From Blastocatellia bacterium (lineage in GTDB: Bacteria > Acidobacteriota > Blastocatellia > HR10), in the NCBI GenBank assembly GCA_025055075.1, contig JANWYV010000016.1:1-64000 (forward strand): a DNA stretch of 64,000 nt, given 5' to 3'. Each line of letters opens with the position of its first letter. Position 1 is the first letter of the stretch. This document shows positions 4,468-64,000 of the stretch, piece after piece. The translations under genes and the position numbers were made by a program. The notes below the pieces were generated by a model. That model did no database searches. It had not been told where the DNA came from and was given only the letters and a program-made list of their open reading frames with translations.

Positions 4468-5295
4468 ATGCTGCGGCACCGAAACTTGGCCGTCCTTGGC
4501 GCCGGTAAAATCGGCGAGGCGTTGATTCGAGGCCTGCTCGAATCGGAGCTTTTGGAGCGAGAGAACATCATCGCCACGGCGAAGCATCAGAAGCGGCTCG
4601 ATTATCTGGCTGAGCATTACGGCGTGCGGACGACGCTCGACAACGCGCTCGCTGTCGAGCAAGCGGATCTGGTGCTCTTGAGCGTCAAGCCGCAGACGAT
4701 GTGCGAGCTGCTGGAGGAGATCGCGCCGGCCGTCGCTCCCCGGCATCTGCTCATCTCCGTCGCGGCCTCGGTCCCCACGGCATTCATCGAGAGCTTGCTG
4801 CCAATCGAAGTCCCCGTCGTTCGCGCCATGCCCAACACGCCGTGCGTCATCCGTGCGGGAATGACGGTGCTTTGCCGCGGCCGCCATGCGACGGAATCGC
4901 ATTTGCAACTGGCGCGCTCGCTCTTCGATGCCGTCGGACGCACGATGATCTTGGACGAGAGTCAGATGGACGCCGTGACGGGATTGAGCGCGAGCGGCCC
5001 AGCGTTCATCTACGTCATCATCGAATCGCTGGCCGAAGCGGGGGTGAAGGTGGGACTCGCGCGCGAGGTGGCCACGGAATTGGCCGCGCAGACGACGCTC
5101 GGGGCCGCGAAGATGGTGCTCGTCACCAACGAGCATCCGGCGAAGCTCAAGGATGCCGTGACCACGCCGGCCGGATGCACAATTGATGGCCTCCTGGAGC
5201 TGGAAGAGGGAGGCTTGCGCGTCACGTTGATCAAAGCCGTTGTCAAAGCCACGGAGCGCGCGCGCTGCTTGTTCTCGAACGGAGGGCGGACATGA
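4468..5295 (+). CDS. proC: Pyrroline-5-carboxylate reductase
   Basis: Reduces 1-pyrroline-5-carboxylate to proline with NAD(P)H in the cytoplasm. The 275-residue sequence has the N-terminal Rossmann motif GAGKIGEAL, the SVKPQ and MPNTPC motifs typical of ProC, and the C-terminal signature region LSASGPAFIY followed by DAVTTPAGCTIDGL. The ATG is preceded by GAGGAGGCGAGG. It follows thrC by 15 bases and overlaps the next start by ATGA, so it is very likely cotranscribed with both. Confidence 0.95.
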   Translation: MLRHRNLAVLGAGKIGEALIRGLLESELLERENIIATAKHQKRLDYLAEHYGVRTTLDNALAVEQADLVLLSVKPQTMCELLEEIAPAVAPRHLLISVAASVPTAFIESLLPIEVPVVRAMPNTPCVIRAGMTVLCRGRHATESHLQLARSLFDAVGRTMILDESQMDAVTGLSASGPAFIYVIIESLAEAGVKVGLAREVATELAAQTTLGAAKMVLVTNEHPAKLKDAVTTPAGCTIDGLLELEEGGLRVTLIKAVVKATERARCLFSNGGRT

Positions 5296-6386
5296 AGAGC
5301 GATGCCCTCTCGGAACACGCACGAGCGACGCTTCGCGCACGCGTGCGCGAACTCACCGCCGTGCTCGTGGAAACGCCGACGCCAAGCGGGAATGAAGCCG
5401 CGCTCTATCCCTTTCTGACTGCTGTGCTCCAAGCTTGTGGCTTCCATGTGGAGCGGCAGATGACGTCGCTCGGACGCGAGAACCTCGTCGCCCGACGGGG
5501 ACGAAGCACGCTGCTTTTTTCGGCGCACGTGGACACATATCCGGCTTACACGCATCCGGAGCCTTATCGGCTGCGCGAGGAGAATGGGCGACTCATCGGG
5601 CGCGGCGCCGTGGATTGCAAAGGACAAATCGCCGCACTGCTCTGCGCCGTCGAATTGATGGACGCGCCCTGCCAGATCGCCTTCGTCGTGGACGAAGAGC
5701 GCACGGCGCTCGGCTCGCGCGAGGTGCAAATTGAAGCCGATGGAGTGATCGTGCTGGAACCGACCGAGCTGCGTCCGGTCGTCGCACATGCCGGGGCGAT
5801 CGAATTGGAAGTCGCCGTCTACGGGCGAGCGGCCCACGGGAGCATGCCGCACTGCGGAGAGAACGCTGTCCTCAAAGCCATGCGGGTCATCGAGGAGATC
5901 GCCCGCCTGCCCTTCCTCGAACAGACGCATCCGCTCTTCCCTCCCGCTCCATGGGTGACGCTGGGGAAGATCGAGGGGGGATTCGACACCATGGTCGTCC
6001 CCAATCGCTGTACCTTTCAAATGGACGTGCGCGTGCTACCGGGCGTCTCCATCCGCACGGCATGCGAACAATTGTTCGCCCTGGCGGCGCAATATGGAGC
6101 CGAGTTGACGATCCTCGATGTCTCGGAGCCTTCCGAGGTTGATGCGCAGCATCCGGTTGTGCGCGCGCTGATGGCCGCTCATGAGGCGATCACGGGAGAG
6201 CGCCCGACTCCTTGCGGCTACTACAGCTTCACCGATGCCACGCACTATCTCCAACGGGGTTTCCCCGCCATCGTCTATGGAGCTGGGAATCTCGGCGTCG
6301 CCCACTCCGACCACGAGTGGGTCTCGCTCGACGAGCTGGAGATCATGACCCGCGTCCTCGCTCATATGCTGGCTCACTGGGGATAA
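5292..6386 (+). CDS. M20 family metallopeptidase / ArgE-DapE-like deacylase
   Basis: A 364-residue cytoplasmic zinc hydrolase of the M20 group. Metal and catalytic motifs are visible: FSAHVDTYP (His, Asp), GRGAVDCKGQ (bridging Asp), VVDEERTALGSRE (general-base Glu and metal ligand), and the late histidine in GVAHSDHEW. The central dimerisation insert contains the YGRAAHGSMPH segment typical of the family. Overlap with proC by four bases implies translational coupling. Candidate substrates are N-acetylated amino acids such as acetylornithine or acetyl-lysine; the sequence alone does not settle which. Its stop overlaps the 3' end of the convergent acetyltransferase gene by 13 bases. Confidence 0.88.
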   Translation: MKSDALSEHARATLRARVRELTAVLVETPTPSGNEAALYPFLTAVLQACGFHVERQMTSLGRENLVARRGRSTLLFSAHVDTYPAYTHPEPYRLREENGRLIGRGAVDCKGQIAALLCAVELMDAPCQIAFVVDEERTALGSREVQIEADGVIVLEPTELRPVVAHAGAIELEVAVYGRAAHGSMPHCGENAVLKAMRVIEEIARLPFLEQTHPLFPPAPWVTLGKIEGGFDTMVVPNRCTFQMDVRVLPGVSIRTACEQLFALAAQYGAELTILDVSEPSEVDAQHPVVRALMAAHEAITGERPTPCGYYSFTDATHYLQRGFPAIVYGAGNLGVAHSDHEWVSLDELEIMTRVLAHMLAHWG

Positions 6387-59458: not shown

Positions 59459-60850
59459 TCACGTGGCCGGAAAGATATAGACCCTCCCCGGTCCTGTCGG
59501 CAGCCCAAATGCCCCTGGGTTCACCGATCCAATCGTCACGTCGCCTCGTCCATCGTGGTTCACGTCCGCAATGGTTAAGGCGAGAGCGAACTGCGTTCCT
59601 GGATCGGGAGGAGAGGCCTGAAAAGTGACATCGGCCGTCGCATCCAGAGCTGATCCCCCGGCGAAGAAATAGGCTCGTCCCGTAACGCTGCCCCTCCGAG
59701 CGATCTGAGCGCCCACGAGGATGTCAGCCCCCGTCCCTCCCCGCGCTTTCCCCAGGGCCAGCGCTGTGCCAAAGCCGTCATTCTGACCGGGTGCGGGAGC
59801 GCGAAGGGTGAGATCTGCTACAGCATCAAACGGTCGGCTCCCGAAGAAGAGATAGACTTCGCCTGGATCGCTCGTGGCCGTGAGCAAAGTCTGCGTGAGA
59901 TTCGGATGCGGCGTTCCAACGAGAGCGTCCTCCAAGCCGTCTCCGTTGACGTCCCCAACAGCGAGCGCCTGACCGAAACCGCTGTTTCGCTTGGGAACGG
60001 GCTGTTGTAACGTTGCATCCACCGTCAGATCAAGGGGCGATCCCCCGAAGAAGATGTGCACGCGCCCGGCCTCTTGAGCTGAACCGGCGTCTTCATTCGG
60101 GGCTCCTACGAGCACGTCATCGAATCCATCTCCATTGACGTCCCCAACGACGACCGCGTTCCCAAAGGCTGCTCCGCGCTGAGGCCTGGGAGATTGAAGC
60201 GTGCGCGGAGCAGTTGGGAATGACGCTCCGCCTTCATAAAGGAAGACCTGGCCAGCCTGATCCTGGGTACCGATCCGCACATTTTCAGCGCCGACGAGAA
60301 CGTCCTCTCGCCCATCACCGTTCACATCCCCGACGGCGAGCGCCCACCCGAAACGCGCTAAGGGATTCAAGCTCGGCAGCGGAAGCTCCCCATCCGCTCG
60401 CGCGTCCAAAGAAGGACCGCCGAAGAAGAAGTACACCTTCCCCGTACCCCGTTGTGCCCCTCCGTTGGCGAGAAGCGCCGAGACGAGGATGTCTTTCCAA
60501 CCATCTCCATTCAGGTCTCCAAGGGCAATAGCCCAACCGAAACGAGCGTCTCGCTCCGGTGTCGGCGCACGAAGGATGAGATCGGGAGAGGTCTCCAGGG
60601 GCGCGCCGCCGAAGAAGACAAAGACCTGTCCCGCGTTCGCCTTGCCCTCAACGTCCACGAGCACAGCGCCCACGAGAAGATCGGCGACCCCATCCCCGTT
60701 CACATCTCCGCTGGCCAGTCCGAACCCGAAACTGCTCTCAGAAGGAGAAGGCTCCAAGATGACGGGAGCTTGAAATTGCGCGAGCCCGAAGCCAGGTCGG
60801 ATGAAGAATCCCAAGGAGAGGACGAAACAGAACACCCCACGTATGCGCAT
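59459..60850 (-). CDS. Secreted FG-GAP seven-bladed propeller protein
   Basis: A 463-residue exported protein: signal peptide (RGVFCFVLSLGFFIRPGFGLAQ), then seven FG-GAP repeats, each a FGxxxxxGDVNGDGxxDxLVG unit. Most keep the Ca-binding DxNxDG pattern (e.g. GDVNGDGVADLLVGA, GDLNGDGWKDILV); the sixth (LGKARGGTGADILVG) is degenerate. This fits an integrin-alpha-like beta propeller with Ca-bound blades, probably a cell-surface binding protein. Start 60850 has GGAGGGC upstream. A 57-residue membrane peptide gene lies 88 bases upstream on the same strand. Confidence 0.88.
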   Translation of the reverse strand: MRIRGVFCFVLSLGFFIRPGFGLAQFQAPVILEPSPSESSFGFGLASGDVNGDGVADLLVGAVLVDVEGKANAGQVFVFFGGAPLETSPDLILRAPTPERDARFGWAIALGDLNGDGWKDILVSALLANGGAQRGTGKVYFFFGGPSLDARADGELPLPSLNPLARFGWALAVGDVNGDGREDVLVGAENVRIGTQDQAGQVFLYEGGASFPTAPRTLQSPRPQRGAAFGNAVVVGDVNGDGFDDVLVGAPNEDAGSAQEAGRVHIFFGGSPLDLTVDATLQQPVPKRNSGFGQALAVGDVNGDGLEDALVGTPHPNLTQTLLTATSDPGEVYLFFGSRPFDAVADLTLRAPAPGQNDGFGTALALGKARGGTGADILVGAQIARRGSVTGRAYFFAGGSALDATADVTFQASPPDPGTQFALALTIADVNHDGRGDVTIGSVNPGAFGLPTGPGRVYIFPAT

Positions 60851-60938
60851 AGAGATGCCCTCCGTGACAGAATCCCCCACACTTGGAAAGTCATTCCAAG
60901 CGGGAGTCACCCAGAGATCCCCTCTACCACTTCCACCG

Positions 60939-61112
60939 TCACAGGAAAGTCTGGAAATCGGGCGGTAGGAGTCCTGCGAACGGTCCGATGCAGAGGAGGA
61001 CCAATGGCGGGAAGATGAAAAACAGCAATAGGCAAATGCTCGGGAGCATGGCATATCCGAACGTGAGCGCTATGGGAGCCAATAACATGAGCATGCTGAC
61101 GAGCTTCTTCAT
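60939..61112 (-). CDS. Small two-helix membrane peptide (57 residues)
   Basis: ATG at 61112 is preceded by GGAGGTG at ideal spacing, and the frame is open to a TGA at 60939. The product starts MKKLVSMLMLLAPIALTFG and continues into a second hydrophobic run (ICLLLFFIFPPLVLLCIG), ending PDFQTFL. The first helix could be a signal anchor. It is not assigned to a family. It is 88 bases upstream of the FG-GAP gene on the same strand, so cotranscription is plausible. Confidence 0.6.
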   Translation of the reverse strand: MKKLVSMLMLLAPIALTFGYAMLPSICLLLFFIFPPLVLLCIGPFAGLLPPDFQTFL

Positions 61113-61200
61113 AATCCCACCTCCATCGAAATATCCATCGGCCTTATCCTAACGGCTGCCCCGAGCGCGGTCAATGGGAACTTGGCGAACAAGGCGAAGC

Positions 61201-61238
61201 TTGACAAGAGGGGAAGCTCGCTAGTACTTTTCCCCTCT
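61201..61238 (+). promoter_or_regulatory. Promoter with overlapping inverted repeat for the secreted-protein/TonB-receptor genes
   Basis: A perfect TTGACA (61201-61206) is followed by a weak -10 region around 61222-61229. AGAGGGGAA (61207-61215) and TTCCCCTCT (61230-61238) are perfect 9-bp arms, covering the spacer and the start region, which is an arrangement expected of a repressor site or attenuator. Confidence 0.45.
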
Positions 61239-61242
61239 CTTT

Positions 61243-61623
61243 ATGGCGAGGCGACCGATATTCGCGCAAAGGATGAGAGGCCGAGGTCCGTGGTTCGTCG
61301 TCTCGCTCTATCTCCTCTTGGTGTGGGATCTCACGGCGCATGCTGTCGCCCCTGCGCGTGACCACTGGCCCACGCTGTCTCACGAGACGGCCTTCTCCCT
61401 CCCCACACTCCCCTTGGATGCCGATTCATCCTCGGGAACAGCGCATTCTGGTCTTTGCGCGTGTCAACATGGGCACGTCCCGTTTGTCTCGCCGATCGCG
61501 AAGACTCTTCTCCCCCCACCGACCTTCGCCCTCATAGAGGGATTGGCTCTCGCCCACCGCATTCACCTCCTACTGACGGACCGCATCATTCGATCCCCTC
61601 CTCTCAACGCACCCCTCATCTGA
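61243..61623 (+). CDS. Small secreted Cys/His-containing protein
   Basis: A 126-residue protein with a signal-like N-terminus (RGPWFVVSLYLLLVWDLTAHA). The middle carries CACQHGHVPFVSP, a Cys/His cluster suited to metal binding. No family is recognised. Start could be 61243 or an ATG at 61273; both keep the signal. It lies upstream of the TonB receptor on the same strand with a small hairpin between, so a role in the same uptake system is suspected. Confidence 0.55.
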   Translation: MARRPIFAQRMRGRGPWFVVSLYLLLVWDLTAHAVAPARDHWPTLSHETAFSLPTLPLDADSSSGTAHSGLCACQHGHVPFVSPIAKTLLPPPTFALIEGLALAHRIHLLLTDRIIRSPPLNAPLI

Positions 61624-61631
61624 TGCGCGGC

Positions 61632-61649
61632 GTGAGGCGCGATCCTCAC
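61632..61649 (+). repeat. Hairpin after the small secreted protein gene
   Basis: GTGAGG and CCTCAC form a perfect 6-bp stem around a 6-base loop, 9 bases past the stop. It might be an attenuator or processing site between this gene and the TonB receptor. Confidence 0.3.
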
Positions 61650-61750
61650 CCCGCTGGAGGGTCGCGCGACACATCTTCCACTTGCAACGAGAACGAACTC
61701 GATGACCGTCATGGAAAAGGTCGCATCGCACACAGAGAGGAGAGGGAACA

Positions 61751-64000
61751 ATGGAATGGACGCATCTGTTCCGATCTGGGGCGCCCTGCTTCATGAAGCT
61801 GGGCTCCTGGCATCGTAGAGCGCTCATCTTCTTGGCCCTCGGACTCGTGCTCCTCGTTCACGGCCCCGTCAACGGAGCACAACCCTCGGGCACGCTGCGA
61901 GGACGAGTCCTTCTCCGACCGGCCAATACGCCGGCGCATGGGATGACGGTGACGCTCGTGCCGGGGAACCGTTCATCCGTGACCGATGAGGCCGGAAGGT
62001 ACGAATTCTCCGAAATCCCCCCGGGCCGATACACGGTGATCGTCCATATGGAGCGTTTGCCCGATGTCATCCAAACCGTCGAGATCGGCCCCGGCGCGAC
62101 AGTGACTCTGGATATTGAATTCACGCTCTCTCCCATTCGCGAACAGATCACCGTGACGGCGAGTGGACGCGAAGAGACCCTCGCGGAAGCTTTTCACGCT
62201 GTGACTTCACTCGACGCCACGGATCTCTTGGGAAAGGACTTGACGTCGCTCGGCCAAGCCCTGGAGCATCAACCGGGAGTCGCCAAGCGCAGCTTCGGTC
62301 CGGGCTCATCGCGTCCGGTGATTCGCGGCTTCGACGGAGACCGCGTCCTCATCCTTCAGGATGGCATTCGGACGGGCTCGCTCTCTTCGCAATCCGGGGA
62401 GCACGGTGAACCCCTTGACGTCCTCAGTGCAGATACCATCGAGGTGGTCAAAGGCCCGGCCACATTGCTCTACGGGAGCAATGCGCTCGGTGGCGTCATC
62501 AACGTCATCACGCGCCATCATCAGATGCATCAGCATCCGCATCGAGGTGCACGTGGCTACGTGACGGGCATCGGCAGTTCGACGAACGACCACGGAGGTG
62601 GAAGCCTCGGTCTCGAATACGGTTTCGGCGACTGGCTCATCTGGGGCAACGGCGGGGGACAACGAACGCGCGATTATCGCACCCCACTTGGCCGGATTCC
62701 GAACTCCGAGACGCGAGGGGGGCATGGCACCGGGGGATTTGGCCGCTATGGGGAGCGCACGTTCTTTAGCCTGAGCTACGGTCACGACGTGTTTCGCTAT
62801 GGCGTGCCCTTCGCCGGGCAGCTTCACGCTGAACATGACGATCATGGCGAAGAGGACGAGCACCACGAACATGAAGCGGAACCGCGCGTGGACTTGAAGA
62901 TGCGACGCCACAATCTGCGCGCCAGCGGCGGCGTGCGCGATCTGGGCGCCTTCGTGGATCGCATGCAGGTGTTCTTCGACTACACCGATTATCAGCACCG
63001 CGAGTTGGAGGACAGCGTGCCGAAGACGACCTTCGAGAATCGCCAGGTCGTCTCCCGAATCGTCTTCGACGAGCGCAAACGAGGCGGGCTCTCCGGGAGC
63101 TTCGGCTTCTGGTTCTTGCACCGCCGATACGAGACGCGCGGTGAGGAAACATTGGCCCCGCCGGTCACTCAACGGGCCCTCGCGCTCTTCGCTCTGCAAC
63201 AGTGGGACCTGCGACGTCTCGTCCTGCAGTTCGGCGGACGGTTAGAACATAATGGCTACGATCCCGTCGGGCTGCCGAGCCGCTCTTTCACCGGCTTCTC
63301 CGGCGCAGCGGGCCTACGCCTCTCGCTCTGGGAAGGTGGGACGTTCGTCCTCAACTACACGCATTCGTTCCGAGCGCCCGCGCTCGAAGAGCTGTACAAT
63401 CGAGGACCGCACATCGGAAACCTCGCCTTCGAGATCGGCGATCCGATGCTCCGACGCGAGCGCGGCGATGGTGTGGATCTCTCCGTGCGTCATCAGAGCG
63501 ATCGTTGGCGCGCCGAAGCGAACGCTTACTATTATCGCCTCACCGATTTCGTCTTCCCGGCCCCAACGGGAGAGATTCGTGAGGGTCTTCGTGTAGTTGT
63601 CTTTCGGCAAGCGGACAGCCGATTCATCGGAACGGAGCTTGGACTCAACCTCGCACTCCATCAGCGAGTGTGGCTCAACCTCGGCTTGGACGCCGTAGAC
63701 GCGGAGCTGCGCCCATCGCGAACGCCCTTGCCTCGCATTCCCCCGGTGCGAGGACGCGCGGGACTAGACATTCAGATCAAGGACTTCACACTTGCTCCGG
63801 AGGCCATCCTAGCGCGCGCTCAAAACGACATCTTTCCCACGGAGACGCGAACCCCCGGATATGCCGTCTTCAACGTGCGCGCCACGTATACGCTCGCGCA
63901 ATCGCACATGCTTCATATCTTCTCCATCACGGGTTTCAACCTCGGCAATCGGCTATACCGCAACCACCTCTCGTTCATCAAAGACCTCGCGCCGGAAATA
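61751..64000 (+). CDS. TonB-dependent receptor, histidine-rich, probably metal-transporting (partial, runs off window)
   Basis: The first 750 residues are in the window. A signal peptide (LIFLALGLVLLVHGPVNGA) leads into a carboxypeptidase-regulatory-like domain (LRGRVLLRPANTPAHGMTVT, EFSEIPPGRYTVIV), a plug (LGQALEHQPGV, PVIRGFDGDRVLILQDGIR, EVVKGPATLLYGSNALGGVIN), then barrel. Two His-rich stretches stand out: RHHQMHQHPH just after the plug and HAEHDDHGEEDEHHEHEAE near residues 358-376. Such His/acidic loops are typical of ZnuD-type zinc receptors. RNHLSFIKDLAPE near the window edge is the usual last-strand region, so only a few codons are missing. ATG has AGAGGGAACA upstream; ATG at 61793 is an alternative. 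Confidence 0.9.
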   Translation, partial: MEWTHLFRSGAPCFMKLGSWHRRALIFLALGLVLLVHGPVNGAQPSGTLRGRVLLRPANTPAHGMTVTLVPGNRSSVTDEAGRYEFSEIPPGRYTVIVHMERLPDVIQTVEIGPGATVTLDIEFTLSPIREQITVTASGREETLAEAFHAVTSLDATDLLGKDLTSLGQALEHQPGVAKRSFGPGSSRPVIRGFDGDRVLILQDGIRTGSLSSQSGEHGEPLDVLSADTIEVVKGPATLLYGSNALGGVINVITRHHQMHQHPHRGARGYVTGIGSSTNDHGGGSLGLEYGFGDWLIWGNGGGQRTRDYRTPLGRIPNSETRGGHGTGGFGRYGERTFFSLSYGHDVFRYGVPFAGQLHAEHDDHGEEDEHHEHEAEPRVDLKMRRHNLRASGGVRDLGAFVDRMQVFFDYTDYQHRELEDSVPKTTFENRQVVSRIVFDERKRGGLSGSFGFWFLHRRYETRGEETLAPPVTQRALALFALQQWDLRRLVLQFGGRLEHNGYDPVGLPSRSFTGFSGAAGLRLSLWEGGTFVLNYTHSFRAPALEELYNRGPHIGNLAFEIGDPMLRRERGDGVDLSVRHQSDRWRAEANAYYYRLTDFVFPAPTGEIREGLRVVVFRQADSRFIGTELGLNLALHQRVWLNLGLDAVDAELRPSRTPLPRIPPVRGRAGLDIQIKDFTLAPEAILARAQNDIFPTETRTPGYAVFNVRATYTLAQSHMLHIFSITGFNLGNRLYRNHLSFIKDLAPEI

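Follow-up and report, generated by a model that had tools for sequence, protein, structure and literature searches.

A small ORF and the TonB-dependent receptor gene behind it lie at the end of the window, the whole 64,000-nt stretch of DNA analysed here. The two probably form a self-regulated metal-uptake gene headed by a CruR-like arrest leader of the DUF2946 type. This reading is built from sequence on the architecture of the leader, its repeated position before one family of receptors and the receptor's own set of ZnuD-type ligands. We infer that the ribosome arrests, in which direction the unit responds, which route it takes (Rho or unmasking) and which metal is involved. The first-pass annotation had proposed a candidate zinc-type uptake unit made of a secreted Cys/His protein and a His-rich receptor under a palindromic promoter. 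Its ZnuD-type receptor was borne out, and the His signature, the palindromic operator, the Zur or ABC neighbours and the uptake role of the small protein were not. The features of the locus are as follows.

61201..61230, forward strand: putative promoter (TTGACA, 18 nt, TACTTT), from the congener alignment by eye
61207..61238, no strand assigned: 9-bp inverted repeat with a 14-nt loop, from sequence; not supported as an operator
61243..61623, forward strand: putative leader ORF, 126 aa, with a hydrophobic N terminus, a Cys/His motif and a C-terminal RSPP, from sequence and alignments
61456..61476, forward strand: CACQHGH, candidate metal-sensing motif, from sequence; aligns with the CxxC of relatives
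61547..61624, forward strand: candidate Rho entry region, the 78-nt stretch with the greatest excess of C over G anywhere in the window, both strands considered, from base composition
61591..61602, forward strand: RSPP, candidate ribosome-arrest motif; R and both P invariant in 28/28 leaders
61624..61750, forward strand: intergenic region, 127 nt, containing an 11-bp hairpin and the receptor's ribosome-binding site, from sequence and folding
61751..64000 and on to contig base 64042, forward strand: ZnuD-like TonB-dependent receptor, from profile, sequence and fold
62399..62404, forward strand: E217-H218, counterparts of ZnuD D99-H100, from alignment
62513..62542, forward strand: first His stretch, RHHQMHQHPH, at the plug-barrel junction, from sequence
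62825..62881, forward strand: second His stretch, HAEHDDHGEEDEHHEHEAE, from sequence
63002..63004, forward strand: E418, counterpart of ZnuD E340, from alignment
63410..63412, forward strand: H554, counterpart of ZnuD H499, from alignment

The assembly is 3.0 Mb in 59 contigs and is 98.8% complete, and its nearest named relatives are MAGs of Blastocatellia or other Acidobacteriota. Upstream of the locus, an FG-GAP repeat protein gene (59459-61054, reverse strand) points away from the putative leader promoter. The neighbouring Zur-like regulator or ABC zinc importer that had been anticipated beyond the receptor did not appear; an HNH gene on the opposite strand and one unassigned ORF follow before the contig ends at 67345. 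The whole 98.8% complete assembly gave no match to the ZnuA or ABC-3 permease families. The genome encodes a ZIP-family gene and two Fur-family genes, and neither of the latter adjoins a recognised zinc gene (3.3-kb loci, inspected by eye).

The receptor and its ZnuD-like site

The receptor is 763 amino acids long and carries an N-terminal carboxypeptidase-regulatory-like domain at residues 48-123. Its best profile is the NCBIfam ZnuD model, at 223 bits versus 134 for haem, 90 for B12 and 58 for copper receptors; this is far below the curated ZnuD cut-off of 950 bits (NF038289), yet ZnuD is the top family. The same model matches 32/32 rows of the receptor family alignment. Among solved structures, ZnuD is also the closest in sequence (E 1.4e-36; next 3.5e-16). 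A Foldseek search with a structure model of the receptor (mean pLDDT 82) returned ZnuD first at E 1.5e-44, with the next family at 6.1e-33, and realignment of the model to ZnuD gave a Z score of 44.3 and an rmsd of 1.8 over 581 residues (next family, Z 37.2). In profile, sequence and fold, the receptor groups with ZnuD, and not with haem, B12 or OprC-type copper receptors. This is as the first-pass annotation had it.

The structure of ZnuD from Neisseria meningitidis (4rdr, 4rdt, 4rvw; PMC4557270) shares its fold, plug and D/E-H-E-H ligand quartet with the receptor; aligned by structure, the two are 24% identical. Each of the four zinc ligands of ZnuD (D99, H100, E340 and H499) has a counterpart. 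Before counting ligands among the window and 75 relatives, we removed five rows whose receptor is interrupted by stop codons (L070, L119, L128, L130 and L132). H218, E418 and H554 are each kept in 76/76 rows, and position 217 is D in 72/76 and E in 4/76. The structure alignment took in 43 of the 75 remaining loci. The receptor differs from ZnuD in its extra N-terminal domain, in loop-3 His clusters that are not kept across its family and in having no Zur site recognised at the locus. In L069 and L130, an otherwise acidobacterial receptor sits in records titled Acidimicrobiia and Arcobacter, which are possibly mislabelled bins.

The two His-dense stretches that had been noted in the receptor do exist, as candidate counterparts of the loop-3 His/Asp clusters of ZnuD. 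They are not a family signature, and we rejected them as such: among the 76 rows, the His count of the first stretch varies from 0 to 5, and the second has no His in 41/76. The second stretch falls in a low-confidence loop of the structure model, with residues 363-375 at pLDDT <50. Since the stretches vary among relatives, the zinc reading rests on the buried site and not on them. The zinc-type unit had been staked on conserved His stretches and on a receptor of the metal-uptake group; the stretches gave way, while the grouping with ZnuD and the ligand comparison both came out in its favor.

The probable leader ORF and its relatives

The small ORF with its CACQHGH is present as first described. 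Its sequence suits a regulatory leader of the CruR/DUF2946 type better than the secreted uptake component it had been taken for. It is the first ORF before the receptor, at a distance of 127 nt, as expected of a CruR-type leader. The residues between its two motifs number 44 counted from the first Cys and 42 from the second, in keeping with a spacing of about 45, and its last Cys stands 43 residues before the R. RSPP is present in the window's leader and in both congeners. A leader-profile search of the window's genome found a single copy, at the receptor locus. Relative to the two congeners, dN/dS is 0.35-0.39 for the leader and 0.12-0.14 for the receptor, so the leader diverges faster.

We then examined 80 named receptor loci, the best 80 of 400 confirmed by scan. 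A strict scan, which demanded a Cys pair and then RxPP 40-48 residues further on, picked out a leader in 25/80 of these loci and in 0/226 control regions; one of the 25 matches (L110) was judged spurious. A motif-only scan for ORFs ending in R[AGS]PP, in which one locus with <300 bases upstream was left out, gave 30/79 loci from the same best 80 of 400, against 0/79 antisense and 0/144 downstream regions. One of these 30 matches (L080) is a broken leader, matched in another frame. On the receptor tree, the presence of a leader by the strict scan requires at least 13 changes, versus a mean of 21 for shuffled labels; leader presence is therefore clustered but patchy.

The relatives' ORFs share a layout: the N terminus is hydrophobic and often followed by H-x-H, after which come C-x-x-C and a C-terminal R-A-P-P. 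The body is barely alignable, and what stays fixed is one Cys, the spacing and RxPP; in the 28-leader alignment no residue is invariant except a single Cys, the R and the two P. Where a leader has CxxC, the distance from its last Cys to the R is mostly 45 residues (range 43-48 over all strict-scan matches), with mostly 44 residues between the motifs. Five leaders (L070, L084, L086, L106 and L120) have mixed Cys/His sites and no tight Cys pair. Pfam DUF2946 is matched by 16/28 leaders at E up to 1.

Several observations point against the leader reading. The window's leader has no match to Pfam DUF2946 (PF11162), it has CAC and then QHGH (CxC plus HGH) in place of the CXXC of DUF2946/CruR, it has RSPP for RAPP, and 49/79 receptor loci (from the best 80 of 400) are without such a leader in the motif-only scan.

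An independent search for DUF2946 across 162 genomes of the class was positive in 29 of them. It returned 30 loci, 21 of them with a motif-complete leader. These 21 precede a member of the ZnuD-like receptor family in 7 cases, another TonB-receptor-like ORF in 12 and an outer-membrane efflux protein in 2 (L156 and L163, whose leaders have C-x-x-C and a C-terminal RAPP or RGPP). Two of the 12 TonB-receptor-like ORFs were checked against Pfam, plus one via L180, and the rest were judged by likeness. The 12 loci (L149, L150, L152-L154, L159, L161, L162, L164, L165, L170 and L171) place leaders before a second TonB-receptor-like family, and the plug G-D-H motif also occurs in several of them.

Other arrangements were also seen. 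In L180 (4010-5326, 8351-9082 and 9371-10551), tandem leaders, both ending in RAPP, stand ahead of a TonB-type receptor, beyond which the opposite strand encodes a ZIP-family zinc transporter and a ZnuD-like receptor is present in fragmentary form. We dropped a ZIP gene beside the receptor as a clue to zinc, as L180 was the single case when the loci examined were searched by tblastn with the L180 ZIP protein. In L091, a DtxR-type repressor with a FeoA domain (5283-6053) follows a leader-headed receptor. L065 has a small Cys/His ORF on the reverse strand upstream of the receptor, with a Pro-rich C terminus and no RAPP, which is perhaps another type of leader. In L049, L051, L052, L055, L057, L059-L062 and L064, a receptor with no detected leader stands behind an apparent LytTR-type response regulator, identified by eye.

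Possible mechanism, metal and alternatives

CruR of Bordetella pertussis (Bp2923, DUF2946) is encoded upstream of crtA/bfrG. Its CXXC senses copper, expression of the TonB receptor gene behind it depends on its RAPP, and 45 residues separate the two motifs (PMC9426467). In the model given there, the ribosome stalls at RAPP without metal and blocks Rho, and the receptor is transcribed. Arrest of CruR at RAPP was demonstrated in vitro, RSPP is partly arrest-permissive in other peptides, and TonB-receptor leaders with RAPP or RGPP are reported to be widespread in Gram-negatives (PMC12992588). The window's leader resembles CruR in being the first ORF before a TonB receptor, in its hydrophobic N terminus, Cys motif, spacing of about 45 residues and C-terminal R-x-P-P, and in the long intergenic gap (162 nt in CruR versus 127 in the window; PMC9426467). 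Unlike CruR, it combines CACQHGH with RSPP, precedes a ZnuD-like receptor instead of CrtA, has no PepSY_TM gene after the receptor and belongs to the phylum Acidobacteriota. CutF of Rhodobacter capsulatus is likewise an exported leader with a Cys motif and a C-terminal Pro-rich stretch that acts on the next gene (PMC9973294). However, CutF activates a copper oxidase with copper, and its stem-loop hides the next ribosome-binding site (PMC9973294), a structure not seen in the window. For CutF-like leaders, links to other metals have been drawn from their context.

On these models, the nascent leader chain would sense metal through its Cys/His motif while the ribosome pauses at RSPP near the leader C terminus. 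With metal scarce, the ribosome would stay, the mRNA beyond would be protected or the start site exposed, and the receptor would be made. Bound metal would relieve the arrest and receptor expression would stop. Two routes may be envisaged, Rho termination in the manner of CruR and ribosome-binding-site unmasking in the manner of SecM or CutF.

For the Rho route, the C-over-G stretch at 61547-61624 spans the RSPP and stop codon of the leader. C exceeds G in 28/28 leaders versus 9/23 receptor genes, and 9/28 leaders stand out in C excess at 0.05 within their own locus. Synonymous recoding of the window's leader reaches the observed excess in 215/2000 cases, so amino-acid content largely explains it. 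We therefore did not retain a selected Rho entry site, extreme though the stretch is within the window. For unmasking, we found no pairing that hides the receptor ribosome-binding site above the level of shuffles in the window (0.33 of shuffles reach it), and the window's intergenic folding energy is ordinary (z -0.67). Such pairing reaches 0.05 or less in 6/28 loci, the window not among them, a count that is partly post hoc because the idea came from first viewing the folds of some loci. Unmasking was set aside as the window's mechanism, with some support in relatives. In L038, L078, L107, L072, L098 and L137, the leader stop-codon region is predicted to pair with the receptor ribosome-binding site; L078 comes from a cultured relative, Pyrinomonas methylaliphatogenes K22. 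Rfam had no match to 60900-61900 with E up to 1, and no intrinsic terminator was found in 61100-61800.

For zinc as the leader's metal, we put the chances at somewhat better than even. Zinc is favored because of the receptor, with its ligand quartet and with ZnuD as its nearest solved relative, and copper is possible because the characterized leaders of the CruR/CutF type sense copper. A fuller proposal is held only tentatively, at a little under even. It would have a zinc-sensing arrest peptide controlling a zinc-importing outer-membrane receptor, recurrent in Acidobacteriota, in which the sensor CxxC has been remodelled to mixed Cys/His sites, whereas R-x-P-P and its position ahead of the receptor have not changed. 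Examples of such a remodelled sensor would be CACQHGH in the window and the Cys plus His variants in L070, L086, L106 and L120.

Leader and receptor might instead respond to and import copper, as cruR-crtA does in B. pertussis, the likeness to ZnuD being ancestry only; we think this rather unlikely. Beyond the copper-sensing of CruR and CutF, leaders of the same class also precede efflux-protein genes, and CrtA, the copper transporter under CruR, has only two conserved His, so that the lack of a Cys/Met site does not speak against a copper receptor. Against copper, the receptor conserves all four ZnuD zinc-ligand positions, both acidic ones included, scores far higher with the ZnuD profile than with the copper-receptor profile and has a fold nearer ZnuD than OprC. 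It is improbable that the small ORF encodes a secreted protein that functions in binding metal, a metallochaperone of the uptake system. The hydrophobic N terminus, the Cys/His motif and a leader dN/dS <1 would suit such a protein, but the fixed elements within a barely alignable body are what an arrest peptide would show, and the leader profile has no match among solved structures.

Control of receptor transcription by a Zur/Fur-type regulator at the promoter repeat is very improbable. The 9-bp inverted repeat reported in the promoter region is real, with arms AGAGGGGAA at 61207-61215 and TTCCCCTCT at 61230-61238 and 14 nt between them. It overlaps the putative promoter, in a genome with two Fur-family genes. 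Such a repeat arises in 20/2000 dinucleotide shuffles of the 102-bp region and in 9/627 window tiles, making it mildly unusual. Alignment with two congeners, by eye, does not keep the arms as an inverted repeat, and on this ground we discarded it as the metal-regulator site it had been suggested to be. Its 9-14-9 geometry is also unlike the Zur sites printed in the accessible parts of PMC2895646 and PMC4176598. What the window and its congeners (L035/L067 and L036/L068) do have in common, by eye, is TTGACA (61201-61206), the 18-nt spacer and the start ATG. The second hexamer is weak; TACTTT was not listed in the promoter scan because it has only 3/6 consensus letters. The putative promoter ends only 12 nt before the leader ATG, and the transcript may accordingly carry almost no untranslated 5' sequence.

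Under the preferred reading, a metal-responsive arrest leader ahead of the receptor, the parts are known, and the combination of an arrest leader with a zinc-type receptor appears to be new. At title and abstract level, subscription papers and supplements aside, we found no publication that describes a ZnuD-type receptor with a DUF2946/RAPP leader and none proposing a CruR-type leader for zinc. According to the CruR paper, riboswitches for copper and zinc have yet to be described, and it suggests that protein-based leaders evolved in their stead for copper (PMC9426467). The RAPP/RGPP survey describes TonB-related leaders with these motifs, and its accessible part does not name ZnuD-type receptors; an RSPP leader like the window's would be missed there, because the survey extracted RAPP and RGPP only (PMC12992588). 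If true, the proposal would bring a second metal within the scope of nascent-chain sensing and, in a genome where neither ZnuA nor ABC-3 was matched, would offer an alternative to Zur that can be tested. With many natural sensor variants standing before one receptor family, the metal specificity of arrest peptides could be mapped.
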